A stretch of DNA of 64,000 nt from the NCBI RefSeq assembly GCF_014196635.1, contig NZ_JACIEB010000004.1:62001-126000 (forward strand). The letters are read 5' to 3'. Numbering within the stretch: the first letter of the stretch is position 1; the number at the start of each line of letters is the position of its first letter. The notes beneath the pieces are model-generated. The model worked only from the letters and a program-made list of their open reading frames with translations. It was not told where the DNA came from and did no database searches. Positions 24,766 through 63,016 of the stretch are shown piece by piece. Made by a program: the position numbers and the translations under genes. Origin of the DNA: Sphingobium fontiphilum (lineage in GTDB: Bacteria > Pseudomonadota > Alphaproteobacteria > Sphingomonadales > Sphingomonadaceae).

Positions 24766-24899
24766 GAGTCGAATGAGCGGGCGCTCCCTTCCCTAGGATA
24801 GGCTGCGTATAAGACGTTCGCCTTCATTCTGGCCGCCGCCGCCGCAGGCAAGATATAATGTCAATCAATCCCAAACCCTGCGGCTGGGAGGAGAGGATC

Positions 24900-45998: not shown

Positions 45999-46202
45999 GC
46001 AAGGCGCCACGCATCCGCTAAAACCCGAGAGTTCTGCCGCATCCTGCCGGTCGATAGGGCTGCCTGCCCACGCCAAGGTGGAAAGCCCGCATATCGTCTG
46101 AATGCGGAGCAGGCCGGCAGGGAGAGGATAATGTTTTTTCCTGCCGAAGCCATGCGCCACGGAGGCCCAGTGATGGCCAAAGCGTTGAGGGAGAGCAATA
46201 TC

Positions 46203-52994: not shown

Positions 52995-54089
52995 TCAGAA
53001 ATGGACGCCCAGCGCCGACACCGTGCCCAGATCCTCGCCAGCGACATAGATGCGCTCGACGATATGCGCGCCTTTCTGCCCCCATTCGTCCATGTTCGCC
53101 AGCCATGACTGCATGGCATAAGGCGGCCAGCGCCGGTAATATTCCCAAAGCGTGTCGTCGTCCGGCACGCCCTGGGCGCCCGTTTCGACGAGGCAGCGGC
53201 GATAGTGGCGCAGCAATTCGCGGTCGTTGGCGCGACGTTCCTCGATCGTCAACGCGCCAAGGATGAAATAGGTGAAGTCGCGGATCGGCCTGCCCTTGCG
53301 CACCAACTGCCAGTCCAGCCAGACACGCTCGCCATTGGGGCGGACATAGCTGTTGCCCTGATGGCTGTCGCCATGGACCAGGCACCAGGGCCCCTGCTCC
53401 TTGGTCTGCGCGAAATCGATAAGCGCGTCGAACACCCTGTGCAGTCGGGACAGGTCATTCTTGATCCAGCCGGGCAGGAAGGACTGATAGTCAGGCCGTG
53501 CGTGGTTCTGCTCGGCAAAGCTGTACATCATGTTCAACTGCTGGACATCGACCGGGTTCGCCATCGAGACCGGCAGCCAGTCCGCTGCATGAAGGGTCGG
53601 GCTGTCCCAGAAGGCGCCATGTATCCTGGCAAGGCTGGCTATCGCCCGCGCGGCTTCCTCCACGCCCATATGATCGGTGCTGATGCCGAAATGGCCGCCT
53701 TCGATCGACAGGTCCTCCATGACGACCAGCCCTTGGCCGCTGTCCGGCCGCGGGTCCCAGGCCTCGAAGAAGGACAGGGGCGCGGGGAAGGCGACATGGC
53801 GGCGGAAATCTTCGTAGAAACGGGCTTCAAGGCGACAGATGCCCTGACTGTCGAATTGCGCCCAATTCGCCTTCAGGCAGACATTTTCGGGAATGCCTGC
53901 CGCCTTGCCGACGTCGTTGAGGGTCAGCCTGACCTGATATTTGGTCGTGTGGCTGTTGCGCAGGAACACCTCGTCCATCGCTTCGACCACGATGCCCGGA
54001 TAGCGCGCCTGCATGATCCGCGTCAGCCATTGCGGCGTGACGTCCTCCAGCCTGGCGGGAATGCCGACCGGATTCGGCATGGTCGTCAT
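52995..54089 (-). CDS. Phosphotransferase family protein (APH fold), canonical motif
   Basis: 364-residue APH-fold kinase-like protein with the full catalytic loop VHGDSHQGN and metal site WLDWQLV, and GLVVMEDLSIEGGHFG plus LARIHGAFWDSP upstream of them. Paralogue of 50403-51551. Start ATG 54089 lies 10 bases after the flavoprotein stop, so the SDR-flavoprotein-phosphotransferase genes (56531 down to 52995) form one operon. The neighbours argue for a metabolic kinase acting on an alcohol and against drug resistance. Confidence 0.91.
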   Translation of the reverse strand: MTTMPNPVGIPARLEDVTPQWLTRIMQARYPGIVVEAMDEVFLRNSHTTKYQVRLTLNDVGKAAGIPENVCLKANWAQFDSQGICRLEARFYEDFRRHVAFPAPLSFFEAWDPRPDSGQGLVVMEDLSIEGGHFGISTDHMGVEEAARAIASLARIHGAFWDSPTLHAADWLPVSMANPVDVQQLNMMYSFAEQNHARPDYQSFLPGWIKNDLSRLHRVFDALIDFAQTKEQGPWCLVHGDSHQGNSYVRPNGERVWLDWQLVRKGRPIRDFTYFILGALTIEERRANDRELLRHYRRCLVETGAQGVPDDDTLWEYYRRWPPYAMQSWLANMDEWGQKGAHIVERIYVAGEDLGTVSALGVHF

Positions 54090-54099
54090 CCGGTCGCCC

Positions 54100-55677
54100 T
54101 TATTTCATTTTCTTGAGTTCGCGCGACGCCCGCTTTGCCGCGATGCGTCCCGCAATGCCGGACACGCCGCCGCCAGGATGCGCCCCCGCGCCGCCGATCA
54201 GGAAGCCGGGGAAGGGCGGCTTGGGGCCGCCAAAGCCGGTTGCCGGCCGGTGCACCCCGGACCGCAGCGCGCCGAAGTCGATATGGGTGACGCAGCCGTT
54301 GGTGACATTCAGGCGCTTTTCGCGCTCACGCGCCGTCTCGACGAAGCGGCCGACCTCGGTGTCGAAGCCATCGTAAAATTCGCCCAGATGGTTGAGGATC
54401 GAGGACATGGTCTTGTCCTTGAGCGCGGGCGACCAGCCTTCGCGGGCATCGACGGCCATGCCCGGCAGGTAGATATAGGCGAGCGATCCGCCCGGAGGCG
54501 CCTGCGTCGGGTCGGAATTGGACAGCGGGCTGAGCGAGACCGCGTGGCGATCCGGAATGTCGCCGCGACGGGCCGCGGCGAACGCCTCGCGCACCTCCTC
54601 CGGCGTGCCGACCAGCCCGACCGCCTTGTTCAGATCGGCGTCGTCATGGCGCATGTCCTGATGCTTCTTGAGCGTCAGCGGACCCGACATGGCGACATTG
54701 GCCAGGAACGGCGCCGCGTTGGAGCGGTTCGCGGGCGCATGTTCGATCCGCTGCATCAGCGTCCGGGGCACGCCGCCGGGCGTCGTCAGCCGCATCGCGG
54801 TGCGCGGATCGCAGGTGGCGATCACCATCTTGGACCGGATGACCCGACCGTCCTCCAGCCGCACGCCCCTGGCGGCGCCATCCTCCACCAGGATTTCCGC
54901 GACGCCGGCGTTGAGTTGGATCGTCGCGCCCGACGCCTCGATACTGCGGGCGAGGGCGTCGGAAAAGGACTGAAGGCTGCCGATCGGCTTGCCTGTGCCA
55001 TATTTATGCGTGACGGCGAAGATCATATAGGCTGCCGCGTTGCCATCGTCGTCGATCGGCCCTGCGCCAGCGGCGATGCCCAGCAGCAGGGCGATGGTCG
55101 CAGGATGTTCGAACCGTTCGCAGGCAATCTGGTCCGCCGTCGCTTTCGACATCGCGATCAGTTCGTCCTTCAGGCGCACGTTGCGAACGGCGCTGCCGAT
55201 CATTTTCGACAGGTTGCCGACGTCCGGTCGCCCGGGCTCCGCCATCATCAGCGGGAAGCCGATGTCCATCATGACGTTCAGCGTCTTCATGAACTCCAGA
55301 TAGGCTTTGCCGTCATTGCGGTTGATCCGCGCGATATCGTCCGCCGTGCGATGATAATCATAGAAAAGCGCGATCGAGCTGCCGTCCGGATGAAGATAGG
55401 CATAGGTCGGATCGGGATCGACCGTGCGCAGGCCATATTTGTGCAGTTCGAAATCTTCGATGATGCCGGATTTGCGAGCGAACAACAATTCGACCGCGCA
55501 GGGCGTGACCAGATGGTCCGGCGCCTCGGGAATCATATAGCCAGAGCTGGTCATGCCGCCAACCTTGGCCATGCGCTCGACCACCACGACCTTCTTGCCT
55601 TCGCGGGCCAGATAGCCGGCGGCGGCCATGCCATTATGTCCCGCACCGATGACGACGACGTCGACCTGATCCGTCAT
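54100..55677 (-). CDS. Phytoene-dehydrogenase-like FAD-dependent oxidoreductase
   Basis: 525-residue flavoprotein of the phytoene desaturase/carotenoid isomerase-like (FixC/CrtI) group. N-terminal Rossmann motif VVVIGAGHNGMAAAGYLA with the ribose-binding Glu of VVVVERMAKVGG; C-terminal FAD segment around GGAGAHPGGGVSGIAG. ATG 55677 follows AAGGATATTGAGC; the frame is open beyond it without another site. It lies 17 bases after the SDR and 10 bases before the phosphotransferase. A desaturase or dehydrogenase role on a hydrophobic, possibly isoprenoid or steroid-like, substrate is plausible but unproven. Confidence 0.88.
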   Translation of the reverse strand: MTDQVDVVVIGAGHNGMAAAGYLAREGKKVVVVERMAKVGGMTSSGYMIPEAPDHLVTPCAVELLFARKSGIIEDFELHKYGLRTVDPDPTYAYLHPDGSSIALFYDYHRTADDIARINRNDGKAYLEFMKTLNVMMDIGFPLMMAEPGRPDVGNLSKMIGSAVRNVRLKDELIAMSKATADQIACERFEHPATIALLLGIAAGAGPIDDDGNAAAYMIFAVTHKYGTGKPIGSLQSFSDALARSIEASGATIQLNAGVAEILVEDGAARGVRLEDGRVIRSKMVIATCDPRTAMRLTTPGGVPRTLMQRIEHAPANRSNAAPFLANVAMSGPLTLKKHQDMRHDDADLNKAVGLVGTPEEVREAFAAARRGDIPDRHAVSLSPLSNSDPTQAPPGGSLAYIYLPGMAVDAREGWSPALKDKTMSSILNHLGEFYDGFDTEVGRFVETAREREKRLNVTNGCVTHIDFGALRSGVHRPATGFGGPKPPFPGFLIGGAGAHPGGGVSGIAGRIAAKRASRELKKMK

Positions 55678-55694
55678 GCTCAATATCCTTTCGG

Positions 55695-56531
55695 TCAGGC
55701 GTTTGCGGCGGCGGTGTAGGCCTTGCCCCATTCGGCCAGCGCCACGAGCCGGGCCTTGCGATCGGCCTGGATCTGGGGGATATTCTCTTCGTCGGGGCCG
55801 TCCGGCACGATCACCAGCGGTTCCTTGCCCAATTGCGCCAGCGCCAGCGCGCAGACGTCATTGGGATCGTAGATTGTGCTATAGTCCATGCCCAGACCTT
55901 CGGTCGCGCGGCGCAGCGTGGGCGTGTCCATGATCGGCGCGGCCACGCCGACGATGTCGATATTCTGGCCATCGAGTTCGGCCCAGAGGGATTCGACGAA
56001 GTTCAGCTCGAATGCTTTGGTCGCAGAATACATGGTCAGCCAGGGTTGCCCGCCCAGGCCCGCGCCCGACGACATGATGACGATCCCGCCCTTGCCGCGC
56101 TGGAGGAAGCGATTGCCAAAGCCGTGGACGGCTTCCAGCACATTGGCCGCATTCATCGTCAGCAGCTTGAGCGAACGGTCGACCGGAGAACCGAAGAAGC
56201 TGTGGCCCGCGCCATCCACGCCCGCATTGGAGATATAGAGGCCGATGTCCAGATCGGCGGTCGCTTCGACCAGGCGCGATCCCATGCCCGGGTGGGTCAG
56301 GTCGCCGGTTAGGGCGCGATATTCGATACCATGGGCGGCGGCGAGGCGCTGACCTAGGGCATCGAGCGCTTCCTGGCGGCGCGACACCAGAACCAGATTG
56401 AGGCCCATGGCGGCAAGCTGCTCCGCATAGCAAGCGCCAGTGCCCTCCGAAGCGCCGGCAATCATGGCCCAGGGGCCGTATTTTTCGGCGAAAGCGGCGG
56501 AATCGAAGGGCGGAAGGTCGATTTTACGCAT
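55695..56531 (-). CDS. Short-chain dehydrogenase/reductase
   Basis: 278-residue SDR with a variant cofactor turn MIAGASEGTG, LVLVSRRQE second strand, ISNAG, catalytic Ser in IMSSGAG and Tyr/Lys in MYSATKAF. It resembles the 17-beta-hydroxysteroid dehydrogenase 12/KAR-like branch in its first half (EKYGPWAMIAGAS). ATG 56531 follows GAGAGGAC; the frame extends to 56603 without a better site. First gene of the SDR-flavoprotein-phosphotransferase operon, divergent from the flavin monooxygenase across a 207-base gap that holds a palindromic operator. Confidence 0.92.
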   Translation of the reverse strand: MRKIDLPPFDSAAFAEKYGPWAMIAGASEGTGACYAEQLAAMGLNLVLVSRRQEALDALGQRLAAAHGIEYRALTGDLTHPGMGSRLVEATADLDIGLYISNAGVDGAGHSFFGSPVDRSLKLLTMNAANVLEAVHGFGNRFLQRGKGGIVIMSSGAGLGGQPWLTMYSATKAFELNFVESLWAELDGQNIDIVGVAAPIMDTPTLRRATEGLGMDYSTIYDPNDVCALALAQLGKEPLVIVPDGPDEENIPQIQADRKARLVALAEWGKAYTAAANA

Positions 56532-56684
56532 CGGGTGAAAGTCCTCTCTTTGCACCATGCCTGTATGGGCGCTTAAGGTTGTGGCGCGAACCCTAGAAGA
56601 CATGTGTTTTACGCCTGCCTATCGGGAGGTAGGTCGGGGCCGATTGGCGATGTGGCCGATCCCCCGCTCGAAAGTGTTTGCAGT

Positions 56685-56706
56685 ATAATGACAATTATGT
56701 CATTAT
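56685..56706. promoter_or_regulatory. Palindromic operator ATAATGACA-N4-TGTCATTAT
   Basis: Perfect nine-base half-sites separated by ATTA lie in an AT-rich pocket of the divergent gap between the SDR operon and the flavin monooxygenase. The palindrome ends 32 bases before the latter's ATG. The symmetry and the local AT richness in GC-rich DNA mark it as a repressor site. The TetR encoded at 58381, third gene of the same operon, is the natural candidate to bind it. Confidence 0.7.
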
Positions 56707-56738
56707 TTCTTTTCACGGTGATGTGAGAGGAGATGCGG

Positions 56739-57989
56739 ATGAGTGGCTTGGCGATGGAAGAGCAGGCGATCGAAAGACGAAAGGTCGCCTCGGTAGCCGA
56801 TCCTGTGGGCGTTGCAGCATCCATGCGGGCATTGCTGCAGGAGCATTCCGCTGCTTGCGAACGGGAGCGGCGTATCGTTCCGGCGGTCATGGAAGCGTTG
56901 CGTGCCTCAGGCCTGTTCCATATCACCGCGCCTGCGCGCGCCGGTGGGCCGGGTCACAAGCTGATCACCCATATCGAGACGGTCGCCGAACTGGCCAAGG
57001 GCTGCGTCGGCACCGCCTGGGCCTATGGCTTGCTGTCGGGCGTCACCGGAAGCGCGCTCGCGCTGCCGCCGGCCATCATGGAACGCCTGTTTCCGACCGG
57101 CGACGAACTGTTCTGCAGCGCCTCCGCGCCTTCGGGCAAGGCGGTTGCAGCGCCGGGCGGCTATCGCGTGTCGGGACGCTGGGGTTACGGATCGGGCTGC
57201 CTGCACGCCGATTGGGCGCTGAACGGCGTGATGATCGAAACCGATCAGGGCGCTGAACGGGCGATGGCGTTTCTCGATCTGCGTGATCCCGCCTGTTCGA
57301 TCGAGGATGATTGGCATGTCGCGGGCATGGCCGGTTCCGGCAGCAACATGATCGTCGCGCAGCATTTGTTCGTGCCAGAGGAGTTGATCCTCTGGACGTC
57401 GCGTACGCCGCCGGCAGAGGCGGTTCTGGCGATGGAAGGGCTGGAGCCGCGCGACCGCTGGCCGATGGAGCCGCTCTTTCCTCTGGGCGTGCTCGCCCCG
57501 ATGCTGGGCGCGGCGACGGCTTTGCTCGAAGGCGTGGCGCAGGCGATGCCCAAGCGGCAGGTGGTGGGCTGGACCTATGCAGGGCAAAGCGGTTCGGAGG
57601 CTCTGATCGGCATGATCGGCCGCGCGGCGATGGAAATCGATTCTGCCTGGCTGCATATCCGCCGGGCCGCCGGGATGCTGGACGAGACCGCGCAGCATCG
57701 CGTGCTGTCCGGCTTCGACAAGGCGCAGATTCAGGCCGATTGCGGCTATGCTATGGAATTGGTGCGGACGGCGGGCAATCGGCTGATGGATGTCGCCGGG
57801 CCGGGCGCCTTCGCCCTGTCGAGCCCCCTGCAGCGGATATGGCGCGACCTTAGCGTCGGCACCCGCCATAATGCGCTCAACGGACAGCTTTCGCTCGAAC
57901 TCTATGGTCGGGCGATCACGGGGCAGCCGTCCAATATCGCTTTGTTGCCCGCCATTGCGCCAGCTCCGCTCTGGGCGGAAACGAAGTGA
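56739..57989 (+). CDS. Flavin-dependent monooxygenase, acyl-CoA-dehydrogenase fold (HsaA-like group D)
   Basis: 416-residue protein of the acyl-CoA-dehydrogenase-fold, two-component flavin monooxygenase group (HsaA, HpaB/C2-like). Seen: RRIVPAVMEALRASGLFHI in the N-terminal helices, GCVGTAWAYGLLSG, the beta-domain RVSGRWGYGSGC, and the C-terminal NALNGQLSLELYGR. Members hydroxylate phenols or other aromatics with FMNH2 from a separate reductase, which is not in the window; some relatives are dehydrogenases. GAGAGGAG lies six bases before ATG 56739; ATG 56733 is too close to it. The gene heads an operon with the SnoaL-like and TetR genes. Confidence 0.85.
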   Translation: MSGLAMEEQAIERRKVASVADPVGVAASMRALLQEHSAACERERRIVPAVMEALRASGLFHITAPARAGGPGHKLITHIETVAELAKGCVGTAWAYGLLSGVTGSALALPPAIMERLFPTGDELFCSASAPSGKAVAAPGGYRVSGRWGYGSGCLHADWALNGVMIETDQGAERAMAFLDLRDPACSIEDDWHVAGMAGSGSNMIVAQHLFVPEELILWTSRTPPAEAVLAMEGLEPRDRWPMEPLFPLGVLAPMLGAATALLEGVAQAMPKRQVVGWTYAGQSGSEALIGMIGRAAMEIDSAWLHIRRAAGMLDETAQHRVLSGFDKAQIQADCGYAMELVRTAGNRLMDVAGPGAFALSSPLQRIWRDLSVGTRHNALNGQLSLELYGRAITGQPSNIALLPAIAPAPLWAETK

Positions 57990-58003
57990 CAGGAGAAGGA
58001 CAT

Positions 58004-58372
58004 ATGACGACTCAACCCACGCCGCAGGAAATCGCGACATTCCTGAAGACCCAGGCCGACATGTTCAGCGAGGGCCGCATCGATGATTTCATGGCGGCGT
58101 TCCGGGCGATCGCACCGGGCGGTTTCAAGGTTCAGGATCCGGCCACCGGTCCGGTGCAGGAGGGCTGGGACAAGCTGGAGGCGCTGTGCAGGCAATATGT
58201 CGGATGGAAGCTGGTCGTCGAGGATGTGAAGGTGAGCGGCAACGAAGCGGTCATCTATGTCCGCAACGAAGGCGAATATGACGGGCATCCCGTCTGTGTG
58301 CACAGCATGGAACATTATATATTCGGCGAGGATGGCAGCTTGCTTGCGCGCTATTTCCACCCGATGCAATAA
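58004..58372 (+). CDS. SnoaL-like NTF2-fold protein
   Basis: 122-residue NTF2-fold protein (IATFLKTQADMFSEGRID at the first helix, then VVEDVKVSGNEAVIYV and a final HPMQ). There is no Arg-x-Asp epoxide-hydrolase signature. ATG 58004 is set by ACAGGAGAAGG in the 14-base gap after the monooxygenase. It is diverged from the other NTF2-fold proteins of the window. It may act on the product of the monooxygenase; function unknown. Confidence 0.78.
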   Translation: MTTQPTPQEIATFLKTQADMFSEGRIDDFMAAFRAIAPGGFKVQDPATGPVQEGWDKLEALCRQYVGWKLVVEDVKVSGNEAVIYVRNEGEYDGHPVCVHSMEHYIFGEDGSLLARYFHPMQ

Positions 58373-58380
58373 AGGGGGCC

Positions 58381-59127
58381 ATGTCCGACGCCGCGTCTGT
58401 TTCCCCCGCTGTCGACCCGCGCACGGCGGCGGCCGCGATCAGGCGCGCCCGGATGCGCGAGCGGCTGCTCGATGCCGTGCTCGACCTGTATCAGCCGGGG
58501 CAGGGCAGCGGCAGTCTCGTGATTGATGACGTGATCCGCGCGGCCAATGTGTCGCGCGGCAGCTTCTATAAATATTTCGATTCTCTCGACGCTGCGGTGA
58601 ATGAACTGGGCGAGCGGATGCTGGCGGAATTGATGGCCGAATTTCGCGGACTGTTCGACGATGTGCCTGACCCCCTCGTCAGGGCCGTGGGCGGCGCATC
58701 CATGGCGATGGTGCGGGCCTGGCACGATCCGCGCTGGGGCGGCTTTACCTGCCGCGTGGACTATGTCGATTATTTCGCGCGGGCCAGCATGTTCGACCTC
58801 GTCGTCCGCGATGCGCTGATGGCCGCCCGCGACCAGGGACAGATGCGCTTCCGCTCGATCGATGTTGCGGTCGACCTGATCGTGGGCATGACGATCGAGG
58901 GACGGCGACGACTTGTGCTGCGGTCGGTCGAGCCGCGCGCCTATATTGACGAGATGATTGAACGCACCTTCATCGGGTTGCAGGCGGATCCCTCGGCCAT
59001 TGCGCAGGCCAGCGACTATTTCTGGCGGGCTATTTTCAAAGCCGCGCCCATGCTTCCTTGGTGGCGGAGCAACGGGGAAGGCGGGCCTTCTTCGATCGGT
59101 TCGCCGAGCGGGCTTCGGTCTGACTGA
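58381..59127 (+). CDS. TetR-family transcriptional regulator
   Basis: 248-residue repressor with an N-terminal arm of about 20 residues, an HTH around VIDDVIRAANVSRGSFYKYF and the ligand-binding domain after it. It begins 8 bases after the SnoaL-like stop, so it is autoregulated with that operon. The palindrome at 56685-56706 is its probable operator, controlling both divergent operons. The stop is one base from that of the convergent VOC gene. Confidence 0.9.
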   Translation: MSDAASVSPAVDPRTAAAAIRRARMRERLLDAVLDLYQPGQGSGSLVIDDVIRAANVSRGSFYKYFDSLDAAVNELGERMLAELMAEFRGLFDDVPDPLVRAVGGASMAMVRAWHDPRWGGFTCRVDYVDYFARASMFDLVVRDALMAARDQGQMRFRSIDVAVDLIVGMTIEGRRRLVLRSVEPRAYIDEMIERTFIGLQADPSAIAQASDYFWRAIFKAAPMLPWWRSNGEGGPSSIGSPSGLRSD

Positions 59128-59128
59128 A

Positions 59129-59587
59129 TCAAATCGCCGCTTCTTCGCGGAATACGATCTCGGTGAAATGGCCGACGCTGTCGCACGTATCCAGATAGGC
59201 AAAGCGCGCGCGGGGCGTCGCGCCTTCCATCGCAATGGCAAGGCCGCTCGCCAGCGCGCGTTCGCGAACCTCCTCCCATGCTTTCACATCGGGCTGGCGA
59301 TAGCCCAGATGGTGCAGCGCGATCTGGTCGCTGCGTTCGGGCAGGGCGGCGATGTAGACGGACGGCCAATCCGGGCGAGGTTCGATCAACTCGACCTCGA
59401 CATTCCCCAGCATGAGGTGGGAAAGGGCGCGTATCATGACGGGATTGCCGTCGGTATCGCGAAAATCCTCGAACAGGTCTAAGCGGGTCGCCCCCATTGC
59501 ATCTAACGCCGCCAGACCGGCCCGAATGTCGCGGGTGACATAACCAATTTGGAATAATGGCCCGAACGCGCCCGCTGCTGCATCCAT
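59129..59587 (-). CDS. Glyoxalase/VOC-superfamily protein
   Basis: 152-residue vicinal-oxygen-chelate protein. LFQIGYVTRDIRAGLAAL begins one beta-alpha-beta module, VEVELIEPRPDWPS ends it, and ALHHLGYRQPDVKAWEEV begins the second, with a metal-type His. Members are dioxygenases, epimerases or isomerases. ATG 59587 follows AGGGAGATGG; the frame is open upstream without a site. It is divergent from TetR 59803 and TonB receptor 4. Confidence 0.83.
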   Translation of the reverse strand: MDAAAGAFGPLFQIGYVTRDIRAGLAALDAMGATRLDLFEDFRDTDGNPVMIRALSHLMLGNVEVELIEPRPDWPSVYIAALPERSDQIALHHLGYRQPDVKAWEEVRERALASGLAIAMEGATPRARFAYLDTCDSVGHFTEIVFREEAAI

Positions 59588-59802
59588 CGGCCATCTCCCT
59601 GTCAAAAACAAGCCAGCATAGATGCTCCAAGTGAACATAACCCTTTCGAATGATAGGGGGCCCGTGGTGCTGGGCGGCTTAAATAGACATGGTCGAGATA
59701 AAGATCCGGCAGGGATGGAGAGCATGCTGCAATGGCGTCTGGGTCAACCGGGTTGCTTCAAACATTGCGGCCTTTTGCAATGCTTTTGAAGGTTCCGTAG
59801 CG

Positions 59803-60453
59803 GTGGAAACAGACTCTCCACAGAGGCGGATCAGGATCCTTCACCGGGCTACCGAAATATTCCTCGATCGCGGCTATTCTGGCGCCACGCTCGACGATAT
59901 TGCGCAGGCCGCTGGCGTGGGCAAGATCGCCATCTATCAACTCTTTGGCGACAAGGTGGAACTGTTCGCGCAGTGCATGATCGACGCGGCCGGAAGCAAC
60001 CCGGTCATGTCACGAGCGCTTCTGCGAAGGGATCGCCCGGTGCGCGATGTTCTGGTTGAATTTGCCGAACAGCATATCCGCCGTATGTTCCGTCCCGTTT
60101 TCGGCGCGCGCCCCTATTATGAATTCGTGCGGGTGCTGCTGAGCGCATCCATATCCCATCCCGACATAAGCGGGCGTTGCCTTGCCATATTGCGATCGGA
60201 CGAGGGTGCGCCGTTGCAGGAATATTTTCAGGATATGATAGATCGGCGGATGCTCGCCGGCGGCGATGGGCCCTTTTTAGCCCGCCATTTCATCCAGACC
60301 ATCTTCTTTACCAACAACGTCATTTTGGAGCCGTCGAGCGTTGATCGCTACCGCGATAGCCGGGCGTCCGCCGAAAATGCGGTCGATTTGTTTCTGAACG
60401 GATGCGCCGGCGTGGCGCTTTCGGTTTTTTCTCCGTCGGAGGCTGCGCTCTGA
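59803..60453 (+). CDS. TetR-family transcriptional regulator
   Basis: 216-residue repressor starting at GTG 59803 (GAAGG nearby), since the conserved region begins only at SPQRRIRILHRATEIF. The HTH is GYSGATLDDIAQAAGVGKIA followed by IYQLFGDK. The C-terminal part shares RPYYE, SISH, TIFFTNNVILEP and VDLFLNGC with the TetR at 31618. It lies 139 bases before TonB receptor 4, its probable target. Confidence 0.88.
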   Translation: METDSPQRRIRILHRATEIFLDRGYSGATLDDIAQAAGVGKIAIYQLFGDKVELFAQCMIDAAGSNPVMSRALLRRDRPVRDVLVEFAEQHIRRMFRPVFGARPYYEFVRVLLSASISHPDISGRCLAILRSDEGAPLQEYFQDMIDRRMLAGGDGPFLARHFIQTIFFTNNVILEPSSVDRYRDSRASAENAVDLFLNGCAGVALSVFSPSEAAL

Positions 60454-60592
60454 AGGGGCGGCTTGTCCAGCCGATCCGGAGCAAAATGGATGAGCGATCA
60501 TCCCAAGAAGAGACCCGGCGAACAGCCGGGCTGTGCTGCCTGTTCAATTGAAATTTCGGCCGATAGCGCCGTGCTTAAAGGGAGGATGGAAT

Positions 60593-63016
60593 ATGAAAGG
60601 AAGATATTATCTTCAGGTCAGCATGATGGCGTTGGGAGCGGTGGCTGCGCCATCCGCACTGGCGCAATCCACGGGCAACGCCGCGCCCCAGGAGGCTGAT
60701 TCCTCATTCGGCGACATCATCGTGACAGCCAATCGCCGCGAGGAGAATGCCCAGTCGGCCCCCGTCTCTGTGGTTGCCCTGGGCTCGGAAGCCCTTATCG
60801 AAAAGGGCGTCAGATCCCTCAGCGACCTTACCAGCGTTGCGCCCGGCATCCGCTTCGTCCACCAGGGCGGGGGCGGCAACATGAACGTCGTGATGCGCGG
60901 GCTTCAGCGTATTCCGATCGGCAACGCGCCGAACGCCGTCATCAACTATTTCGCCGATATCCCGCTGCCGTTCCAGGGGTCCAACGTCCCTACCTATGAC
61001 CTAAACAGCGTTCAGGTGCTGAAGGGGCCGCAGGGCACGCTGTTCGGGCGCAACGCCATTGGCGGCGCGGTGATCATCACGCCACAGGCGCCGACCTATA
61101 ATTTCGAAGGCTATGTGCGCGGCAGCTATGGCAATTATGATTATAAGGATCTGGAAGGGGCGCTGAACGTCCCGATCATCGATGGCAAGGTCGCCCTGCG
61201 CGTCTCGGGGAAGGTCACGCGGCGGGACGGCTATACCAAGAACCTGTCCGGCGGGCGGGATATGGACGATATCCATCAGAACAGCTTCCGCGCTTCGCTG
61301 CTGATCGAGCCCTCGGACACGTTCCGCAACACGACCATCTTCGACTGGTTCCAGGCGCGAGAAGCAGGCACGGGCTCCATCCTCAGCGCCGTTCTGCCGA
61401 CAGGACTGGTGCGGATACCGCAACTCGCCCACTTTTATGATTGCAACACCATCAACGCCTTCAATCCGGGCTGCGGCGCCATTCCCGGCGTGCTGCCGCC
61501 GGGTAACGATATTGATACGGCTTTCGCCCTGCAGCAGCAACTGGGCGTGCGCGCGAGCTACTCGGACATCAATCCCCGGCTCGATCGCGACCTGTGGGGC
61601 GTGTCGAACAAGACGGAGTTCGATATCGCCGAAGGCGTGACCTTGCGCAACATCTTCGGCTATCGCAGCACCCATCTGGAAACCGACCTCAATACCGACG
61701 GCGTCGCTTTCCTGCCGCTGCCCATCATCAATGCGTCGAACCGGGTGCGGGAAGAACAGTTCAGCGACGAATTCCATATCTTCGGCACCGTCATGAACGA
61801 TCGGCTCGATTATCTGGTTGGCGCCTTCTACATCAAGGAGCAGCCATGGGGCCTGTCAGGGTCGAACTTCCCGGTTGCGGCTCCAGGCGCGCCCTGGGTC
61901 ATTGCCTATACCAACAAGACCAACAAGGCGGTGTTCGGGCAGCTGGGCTTCAAGATCACGGATACCATCAAGCTGAATGGCGGCGTTCGCTATAACAAGA
62001 CGAAGCAAAGCGCCTGCTCGGTCACGCCGAACATCCCTGTGCCGACATCGGCCATCGAAGCGGCGGAACCGTCTGTGGGGCCGGATGAATGTGCGGCGAC
62101 AACCGGCGCCAGCCAGGCGCTCGTGAAGGAAAGCGCGACCACTTACAATATCGGTTTGGACTGGCAGGTGACGGACGACATTTTCGCCTATGTCACGCAT
62201 CGCAAGGGCTATCGCGAAGGCGGGTTGAACTATCCCGGTTTCACGACGCCCTGCACGACGGGCAATTCCAACGGAATCTGCATCGGCAGCAACGGGTTGC
62301 CTCAGCCCAACCCGGCCGACCTTCGCCCCTACCAGTCCTATCAGCCGGAAACGCTCAAGGACGTGGAAGTGGGCATCAAGTCGGAATTCCGGCTGGGTGA
62401 GGGCCGGATGCGGTTCAACGTGTCGGCCTTCCGGGGCACTTACTCCAACGCCGTCGTGCCGTTCAACACCTCGGCGATCGTGCCGTCGACCGATTCGTCG
62501 GCGCCGCAGTCGAGCTCGATCGGCATCAACGTTGGCAAGCGCCGCCTGACCGGCTTCGAGAGCGAGGTGATGTTCCAGCCGAGCCGCAATCTCTCCTTCA
62601 CCAACACCCTCGCTTATGTGAAGCAGACGATCCTCTCCAATACTCTGCCGAACATTCCGGGGCTCCAGTTGCCCTCGCTGACGCCGGCATCGCCGAAATG
62701 GTCGATGACCAGTTCAGCGCGCTGGGTGCTGCCTGTCCGCCCGGCGGACGGCGAGCTTGTCCTGAACGCGGATTATTATCAGCAGAGCCGCTTCTATAAT
62801 GGCAACGATAGTTTCCCTGCCTATGAAAATGTCAATGCCCGGCTGGAATGGAGCGGTATCGGCGGCAGCGGTCTGACGGCTGCGGCGTTCGTCCGCAACC
62901 TGTTCAACGACACCTATGCTTATGCCAGCTCGGCCAGCTCGGCCAGCCTTGGCATATTCACCCGGTCATACAATGAGCCGCGCATGTACGGCATCGAACT
63001 GGGCTATCGCTTCTAA
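60593..63016 (+). CDS. TonB-dependent outer-membrane receptor 4
   Basis: 807-residue receptor. Signal peptide ends near APSALAQS; plug has DIIVTANRREENAQSAPVS and QVLKGPQGTLFGRNAIGGA; barrel ends GIELGYRF. ATG 60593 is set by GGGAGGATGG; the frame is open from 60533. It is the most diverged of the four: the barrel motif is HRKGYREGGLNYPG where the others have GGIN, and it has extra extracellular-loop cysteines (DCNTINAFNPGC). A terminator hairpin follows the stop. Ligand unknown, probably distinct from receptors 1-3. Confidence 0.95.
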   Translation: MKGRYYLQVSMMALGAVAAPSALAQSTGNAAPQEADSSFGDIIVTANRREENAQSAPVSVVALGSEALIEKGVRSLSDLTSVAPGIRFVHQGGGGNMNVVMRGLQRIPIGNAPNAVINYFADIPLPFQGSNVPTYDLNSVQVLKGPQGTLFGRNAIGGAVIITPQAPTYNFEGYVRGSYGNYDYKDLEGALNVPIIDGKVALRVSGKVTRRDGYTKNLSGGRDMDDIHQNSFRASLLIEPSDTFRNTTIFDWFQAREAGTGSILSAVLPTGLVRIPQLAHFYDCNTINAFNPGCGAIPGVLPPGNDIDTAFALQQQLGVRASYSDINPRLDRDLWGVSNKTEFDIAEGVTLRNIFGYRSTHLETDLNTDGVAFLPLPIINASNRVREEQFSDEFHIFGTVMNDRLDYLVGAFYIKEQPWGLSGSNFPVAAPGAPWVIAYTNKTNKAVFGQLGFKITDTIKLNGGVRYNKTKQSACSVTPNIPVPTSAIEAAEPSVGPDECAATTGASQALVKESATTYNIGLDWQVTDDIFAYVTHRKGYREGGLNYPGFTTPCTTGNSNGICIGSNGLPQPNPADLRPYQSYQPETLKDVEVGIKSEFRLGEGRMRFNVSAFRGTYSNAVVPFNTSAIVPSTDSSAPQSSSIGINVGKRRLTGFESEVMFQPSRNLSFTNTLAYVKQTILSNTLPNIPGLQLPSLTPASPKWSMTSSARWVLPVRPADGELVLNADYYQQSRFYNGNDSFPAYENVNARLEWSGIGGSGLTAAAFVRNLFNDTYAYASSASSASLGIFTRSYNEPRMYGIELGYRF

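Follow-up and report, generated by a model that had tools for sequence, protein, structure and literature searches.

The question raised by this locus is whether a perfect inverted repeat in the gap between two divergent operons of Sphingobium fontiphilum is the operator of a TetR-type regulator encoded close to it and, if so, how far the control exerted by that regulator would extend. The repeat, ATAATGACA-ATTA-TGTCATTAT, occupies positions 56685 to 56706 of the window (the whole stretch of 64,000 nucleotides analysed here), with two arms of 9 bp around a spacer of 4 bp, and as a dyad it is assigned to no strand. An earlier note on this DNA had described it as a perfect 9-4-9 palindrome in an AT-rich pocket between divergent operons, and had proposed that the TetR protein encoded from 58381 binds it and governs both directions, making the block from 53.0 to 59.1 kb a single regulon. 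The descriptive part of that account was accurate: the sequence matches exactly, the GC content is 45% in 56650-56749 against 53-72% in the remaining 100-base windows of 56000-57399, and the palindrome falls within the 210-bp gap separating SDR1 (start at 56528, minus strand) from the monooxygenase gene. From its centre it is 43.5 bp to the likely monooxygenase start codon (56739), which follows it, and 167.5 bp to that of SDR1.

The operon reading rightward from the gap comprises three genes on the plus strand. The first (56739..57989) encodes, according to profile matches, a flavin-dependent monooxygenase with an acyl-CoA-dehydrogenase fold that resembles HsaA and XiaF; its closest solved relatives by sequence are XiaF, 3-HSA hydroxylase and p-hydroxyphenylacetate hydroxylase, and its score against the NCBIfam equivalog for HsaA (3-HSA monooxygenase) was 173 bits, below the cut-off of 450. 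The reading frame opens at 56733, and the spacing from the Shine-Dalgarno sequence AGGAG (56728..56732, plus strand, recognised by eye) favours the ATG at 56739. A gene for a SnoaL-like protein (57986..58372; SnoaL_2 at 21.7 bits, below the cut-off of 27) overlaps the monooxygenase stop, and 8 nt past it lies the third gene (58381..59127), whose product, TetR1, we predict to be an autoregulated repressor. The candidate core promoter of this operon, recognised by eye at 56678..56706 on the plus strand, admits two readings: TTGCAG at 56678-56683 followed after 17 nt by CATTAT at 56701-56706, or TATAAT at 56684-56689 as the -10 element. A scan of the gap with the sigma-70 consensus called no promoter. 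Under both readings the candidate -10 element would lie inside an arm of the palindrome, so that a protein sitting on the repeat would obstruct the promoter either way.

The same geometry bears on the idea that the repeat acts as RNA, as a hairpin or attenuator in a transcript. A perfect inverted repeat is able to fold, but this one overlaps both candidate -10 elements and would be mostly untranscribed in the CATTAT reading, its 9-bp AT-rich stem has no GC clamp, and a search of 56000-57200 against Rfam gave no match at E ≤ 1; an RNA element is therefore scarcely credible. No tRNA genes were found in the window.

The window contains 7 perfect repeats with arms of at least 9 and a spacer of at most 10; in 20 shuffles such repeats averaged 5.3 and reached 11 at most. 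Those that are AT-rich (at least 60% AT) average 0.05 per shuffled window, and shuffling the 210-bp gap gave a repeat with arms of at least 9 in 17 of 3000 trials. With 3 mismatches allowed, the palindrome motif gave a single site in the window, none in 100 shuffles, and no other site in the 3,410,606 bases of the organism's own genome; a search there for the shorter core AATGACA-N4-TGTCATT, allowing 2 mismatches, found 5 further places, against 2 for a control. In our reading, the evidence that decides the significance of the palindrome is its evolutionary conservation and not its length.

Orthologues of TetR1 (63-84% identity) were found in 9 further genomes of the genus when 150 relatives were searched, the next full-length matches reaching at most 37%. 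An order-wide search matched 2 of 396 genomes, both already known, and a search of plasmids gave no match at E ≤ 1e-20. The monooxygenase-SnoaL-TetR1 arrangement with the SDR operon divergent from it is retained at all ten TetR1 loci. Across the 8 distinct promoters of these 10 genomes, the palindrome has 15 invariant columns out of 22, the left flank 2 out of 49 and the right flank none out of 26, and pairwise identity is 0.88 in the palindrome against 0.42 and 0.33 in the left and right flanks, respectively; of the 52 columns of coding bases 56739-56790, 9 are invariant in the same 8 promoter sequences. The conserved form TAAYGACA-N4-YGTCATTA was built from these ten loci and is present in them by construction, the results being its single copy per genome there and its absence from the 84 other genomes of the genus, 82 of which (81 plus G150, hence all but G151 and G152) were covered by the TetR1 search.

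Weaker versions of the motif accompany the gene pair beyond the genus. A monooxygenase (62-68% identity) and a TetR protein (58-60%) are encoded side by side, with no SDR1 at the locus, in a Novosphingobium MAG (TetR1 identity 60%) and at three Pseudomonas/Stutzerimonas loci (58%), the last three being near-identical to one another and amounting, with the MAG, to two independent cases. The top motif match at these loci agrees with 13 or 14 of the 18 consensus positions, a score equalled by 0-7 of 2000 shuffles, and sits 37-58 bp before the extrapolated monooxygenase start. Among more distant TetR proteins, L021, L022, L026 and L035 (28.5-32% identity in the local match) have an upstream core agreeing at 15 of 18 positions (0 of 300 shuffles each). 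The remaining 25 of the 29 TetR loci showed no strong motif match upstream of the TetR match, nine of these being orthologue loci at which the palindrome precedes the monooxygenase gene and lies beyond the stretch scanned. The co-occurrence within the genus, the absence of the conserved form from the other genomes and the weaker versions beside the pair in other genera support the earlier attribution of the palindrome to the TetR protein at 58381, as far as sequence comparison can carry it. We consider it highly probable that the palindrome is the TetR1 operator and serves the autoregulated repression of monooxygenase-SnoaL-TetR1.

Other relatives of this unit were met in the course of the comparison. 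On contig C5 of the same genome, a broken copy of monooxygenase-TetR1 (L065 6700-7830; G000:C5:284700-285830) is followed by an SDR gene, as in the Novosphingobium MAG (L041), and this decayed copy has no palindrome. In G043, a paralogue cluster has the core between its TonB receptor and monooxygenase homologues, 135 bp ahead of the former. A flavin reductase, which is the expected partner of a two-component monooxygenase, is encoded after the monooxygenase-TetR pair in Stutzerimonas (L042 5965-8129).

The attribution to TetR1 has to be weighed against the abundance of looser sites. When the window-derived pattern ATAATGACA-N4-TGTCATTAT was allowed 3 mismatches, a site was found in 58 of 94 genomes of the genus, at 94 places against 12 for the reversed control (about eight-fold), and TGAC-N6-GTCA with AT flanks is thus a common class of site in the genus. 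With the loose motif so abundant, part of the palindrome signal is accounted for by a generic class of operator. Among the matches listed, moreover, G061, which has no TetR1 orthologue, carries a site with a single mismatch near a contig end (G061:C3:31185-31206) and no TetR1-like gene within 5.5 kb around it, and G055 has at least two sites with 2 mismatches. The number of loose sites and the site in G061 lowered our confidence in the link between operator and TetR1, by a small step, and it remains high. Recurring versions of the loose site in the genus include ATCACGACATAGATGTCATTTT.

From this genus-wide enrichment and the G061 site it can be argued that other proteins probably use such sites, and that the palindrome is bound by one of them, either TetR2 (gene at 59689), which lies nearby and has a strong TetR_N match, or a regulator encoded elsewhere, TetR1 being co-inherited only through synteny. 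The distribution of TetR2 speaks against this: it was found at no locus examined in any other genome, including the 9 other TetR1 loci with their palindromes, and on no plasmid (E ≤ 1e-10), and on these grounds we rejected it as the partner of the palindrome. Its gene is, in addition, preceded by a box of the kind found in the SDR promoter. Other genera share the monooxygenase-TetR1 pair only, yet the weaker palindrome is present in them. We regard recognition by another regulator as very unlikely. In the window, 59129-63016 encodes a VOC protein, TetR2 and a TonB receptor, between TetR1 and a GntR gene.

By its predicted fold and profile matches, TetR1 itself belongs to the TetR family. The Pfam TetR_N model gave the window protein 22.9 bits, 1.1 bits short of the cut-off of 24, and is matched at E ≤ 0.001 by 9 of the 14 aligned TetR1 members; the predicted structure (pLDDT 82.9) has 11 helices in an all-helical fold with a C-terminal ligand domain. 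The putative recognition helix, assigned from the predicted model and from knowledge of the family, reads VSRGSFYKYF in the aligned Sphingobium and Stutzerimonas orthologues and VSRGTFYKYF in Novosphingobium and some paralogues. A model of RutR gave no match to TetR1 at E ≤ 0.001. The RutR box of E. coli is described as a palindrome of approximately 16 bp, and its sequence TTGACCA-NN-TGGTCAA has the core TGAC-N6-GTCA in common with the TetR1 palindrome, from which it differs in flanking bases, neighbouring genes and ligand. The top PDB match of TetR1 was RolR, both by fold (TMt 0.70, with the predicted model) and in the profile search (E 3.8e-13). RolR of Corynebacterium glutamicum (3AQS/3AQT) is described as a TetR repressor of resorcinol catabolism and thus as a one-component regulator of aromatic catabolism (PMC3086911). 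The two proteins are 16-18% identical in the structural alignment, and TetR1, unlike RolR, is encoded inside the operon that it would control.

We infer that a TetR1 dimer would bind both ATAATGACA half-sites and cover the -10 region of the rightward promoter, keeping the monooxygenase-SnoaL-TetR1 operon, TetR1 included, switched off until a ligand frees the repressor; the ligand is probably the substrate of the monooxygenase or an early product. Such logic is close to that of EdcR, the TetR repressor of estradiol catabolism in Caenibius tardaugens, for which a sphingomonad setting, a palindrome over the -10 box of catabolic promoters, divergent operons and a proposed partial autoregulation are described (PMC8700777). 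The operator proposed for EdcR in that source, TnnCnnTACnAnTnGTAnnGnnA, differs from ours and stands at more than one promoter, whereas the TetR1 palindrome is single in the genome. PheR of Sphingobium sp. SHPJ-2 is presented as an IclR regulator with a different motif (PMC13273656), and a paper on bile salts in C. tardaugens proposes other palindromes (PMC12882949). Our search of the open-access literature found nothing specific on the letters of the motif or on the TetR-monooxygenase unit. The operator is, in itself, an ordinary addition to a known kind. What had been a visual guess has nonetheless become a specific and cheaply testable pair of operator and regulator with a corrected regulon boundary, and a ligand-responsive TetR protein with a single strong operator could become a biosensor part.

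The boundary of the regulon depends on the divergent operon, which lies on the minus strand and consists of SDR1 (55695..56528, by profile match), an FAD-dependent oxidoreductase resembling CrtO and phytoene dehydrogenase (54100..55731, below the NCBIfam cut-offs) and an ecdysteroid-kinase-like phosphotransferase (52995..54089, by profile match). Control of both operons by TetR1 through the single palindrome would agree with the divergent layout retained in all ten TetR1 genomes and with the distance between the palindrome and a separate box in the SDR promoter, which in these ten genomes is either 67-70 or 91-92 bp, two clusters about two helical turns apart; the clusters and the constant divergence could hint at cooperation. 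SDR1, however, occurs in 13 genomes of the genus including the present one (86-90% identity in the other 12), and in three of them (G006, G084 and G012) the SDR operon is accompanied neither by a TetR1 orthologue nor by the palindrome. Two plasmids, one from Novosphingobium resinovorum and one from Croceicoccus marinus, likewise carry the SDR operon or at least its SDR-FAD part; on these plasmids no half-site core was found in the 500 bp before SDR1, and no plasmid in the search, which was confined to plasmids, matched TetR1. Conversely, the weaker palindrome of Novosphingobium and Stutzerimonas occurs with no SDR operon at the locus, and some 110 bp separate the palindrome centre from the presumed start point of SDR transcription. 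The SDR operons that lack both TetR1 and the palindrome, and that keep a differently shaped box of their own belonging to a genome-wide set, leave the control in both directions and the single 53.0-59.1 kb regulon of the earlier note unsupported. Joint control by TetR1 is unlikely, though direct action on the SDR promoter from that distance may occur, and it is very likely that the two divergent operons answer to different regulators.

The box of the SDR promoter, CCTATC-N4-GnnAGG, lies at 56618..56633 as a dyad without strand, one of its halves degenerate, and is predicted to be the site of an activator of the LAL (MalT-type LuxR) kind and to belong to the SDR operon instead of TetR1. A -10-like element, CTTCTAGGGT, follows 18 nt past it (56590..56599, minus strand). 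All 15 SDR promoters compared (13 distinct sequences) have the box on the SDR strand as CC(T/C)nnC-N4-GATAGG, its first half being CCTnnC in 14 and CCCTCC in L127, and the 18 nt to the -10-like element are fixed, the element reading CTTMTA in 14 promoters and TCTATA in L127. At 5 of the 15 SDR loci the box stands with neither palindrome nor TetR1. A strict two-part pattern for the SDR promoter gave no match, because the spelling of the -10 element varies, and only the 6-4-6 form CCTATC-N4-GnnAGG told signal from noise. Two other descriptions of the SDR element were dropped, TGCCTATCGGGAGGYAG for its many matches within long reading frames and CCTATCNNNNGNAGG for its wrong register.

The 6-4-6 form occurs in 4 copies in the window, where 0.05 are expected, and at 22 places in the genome against 3 for a control pattern. 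These 22 boxes are confined to contigs C3 (206-258 kb), C4 (5-127 kb) and C5 (225-316 kb), and none was found on C1 (929 kb) or C2 (550 kb). The other three copies in the window are on the minus strand: at 24787..24802, before a plus-strand gene at about 24.86 kb whose start looks, by eye, like the signal peptide of a TonB receptor; at 46043..46058, near plus-strand SDR and MFS genes recognised by eye; and at 59642..59657, close to where the VOC gene has its 5' end and 31 bp ahead of TetR2 (59689). The genes first after the boxes, read mostly by eye and in some cases through Pfam, encode SDRs, a P450, acyl-CoA synthetases, TonB receptors, GntR and others. For several boxes the rules of the scan gave no clear first gene up to a distance of 330 bp, and the box in L183, which overlaps the end of a coding region, may be a chance occurrence.

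A candidate for the protein that reads the box emerged from its perfect form. CCTATC-N4-GATAGG was found in 29 of the 150 relatives, and each of the 13 genomes that carry the SDR operon has one copy directly before a MalT-type gene, whose product is 72-100% identical to that of the present genome over the stretch compared. The four LAL/MalT-type proteins read whole have 893-901 aa, that of the present genome 899. Scanning of three identified TPR_MalT and GerE in all of them and a STAND-NTPase above the cut-off in two (G000:C3 and the G074 orthologue), in likeness to the MalT/LAL regulators of the LuxR family; the LAL protein nevertheless scored 246.8 bits against the MalT NCBIfam equivalog, below the cut-off of 537, and its predicted box is the dyad CCTATC-N4-GATAGG, in both of which it differs from MalT. 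A second copy in the genome, on C5, is 59% identical and also has the perfect dyad in front; it matches TPR_MalT and GerE, its AAA match being under the cut-off. A zinc-type oxidoreductase gene is divergent from the LAL gene wherever both sides were read, and G034 has the LAL regulator and the dyad with no close SDR1.

The box might instead be bound by an unlinked repressor or by an activator other than the LAL protein, a reading to which we give a minor share of our belief. The degenerate half of the dyad in the SDR promoter could point to it, as could the 15 of the 29 genomes with a perfect dyad in which no LAL gene lies beside the site examined (one site per genome), and the exact box found also by the neighbouring GntR gene in 12 of 14 loci (with one mismatch in L120 and absent in L127). 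On the other side stand the position of the perfect box before the LAL gene in every SDR-operon genome and the constant distance to the weak -10-like element, for a box near -40 ahead of such an element fits an activator. On these comparisons the SDR operon forms a unit of its own, most likely switched on by the LAL regulator, encoded elsewhere, acting through the box at 56618-56633, and from the genome-wide occurrence of its box and the perfect form before the LAL gene it probably belongs to that larger regulon. We somewhat favour the view that the 210-bp gap is a junction between a local TetR1 switch and a box of a pathway-wide LAL regulon, with about 20 sites in three catabolic regions, in which the LAL regulator would control its own gene through the perfect box.

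No description of such a LAL regulon was found in the open-access literature; the passages of a review on steroids that mention the LuxR-type TeiR/TesR give no operator (PMC6678751). If the proposal is true, a catabolic LAL regulon of sphingomonads gains a defined operator. Through the box, Sphingobium is seen to have a large, uncharacterised catabolic system with a candidate regulator and about 20 marked places, of which many are promoters. The genes of this system look like those of TonB receptors, P450, SDRs, beta-oxidation enzymes and ecdysteroid-kinase-like proteins. The places and the regulator together offer a route to its substrate. The box next to the palindrome and the predicted regulon are in this sense more interesting than the operator.

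The GntR gene was also considered as the source of the SDR regulator, and this was argued against on the ground that the window has no copy, at up to 1 mismatch, of the likely GntR palindrome ATTCTATAGAAT. The gene is intact and starts about 1 kb past the window end (L188, about 1927-1980; G000:C4:126926-126978). In 14 related loci a GntR gene, of the FCD type in the one scanned, accompanies an acyl-CoA dehydrogenase gene, and at or beside its start stands ATTCTATAGAAT in 9 of the 14 and ATTCTATAGACT in 5, possibly an autoregulatory operator of GntR. A second GntR-acyl-CoA dehydrogenase pair, in fragments and apparently decayed, lies at L124 6457-6987 (G000:C4:46457-46987), with the same GntR palindrome and a box nearby.
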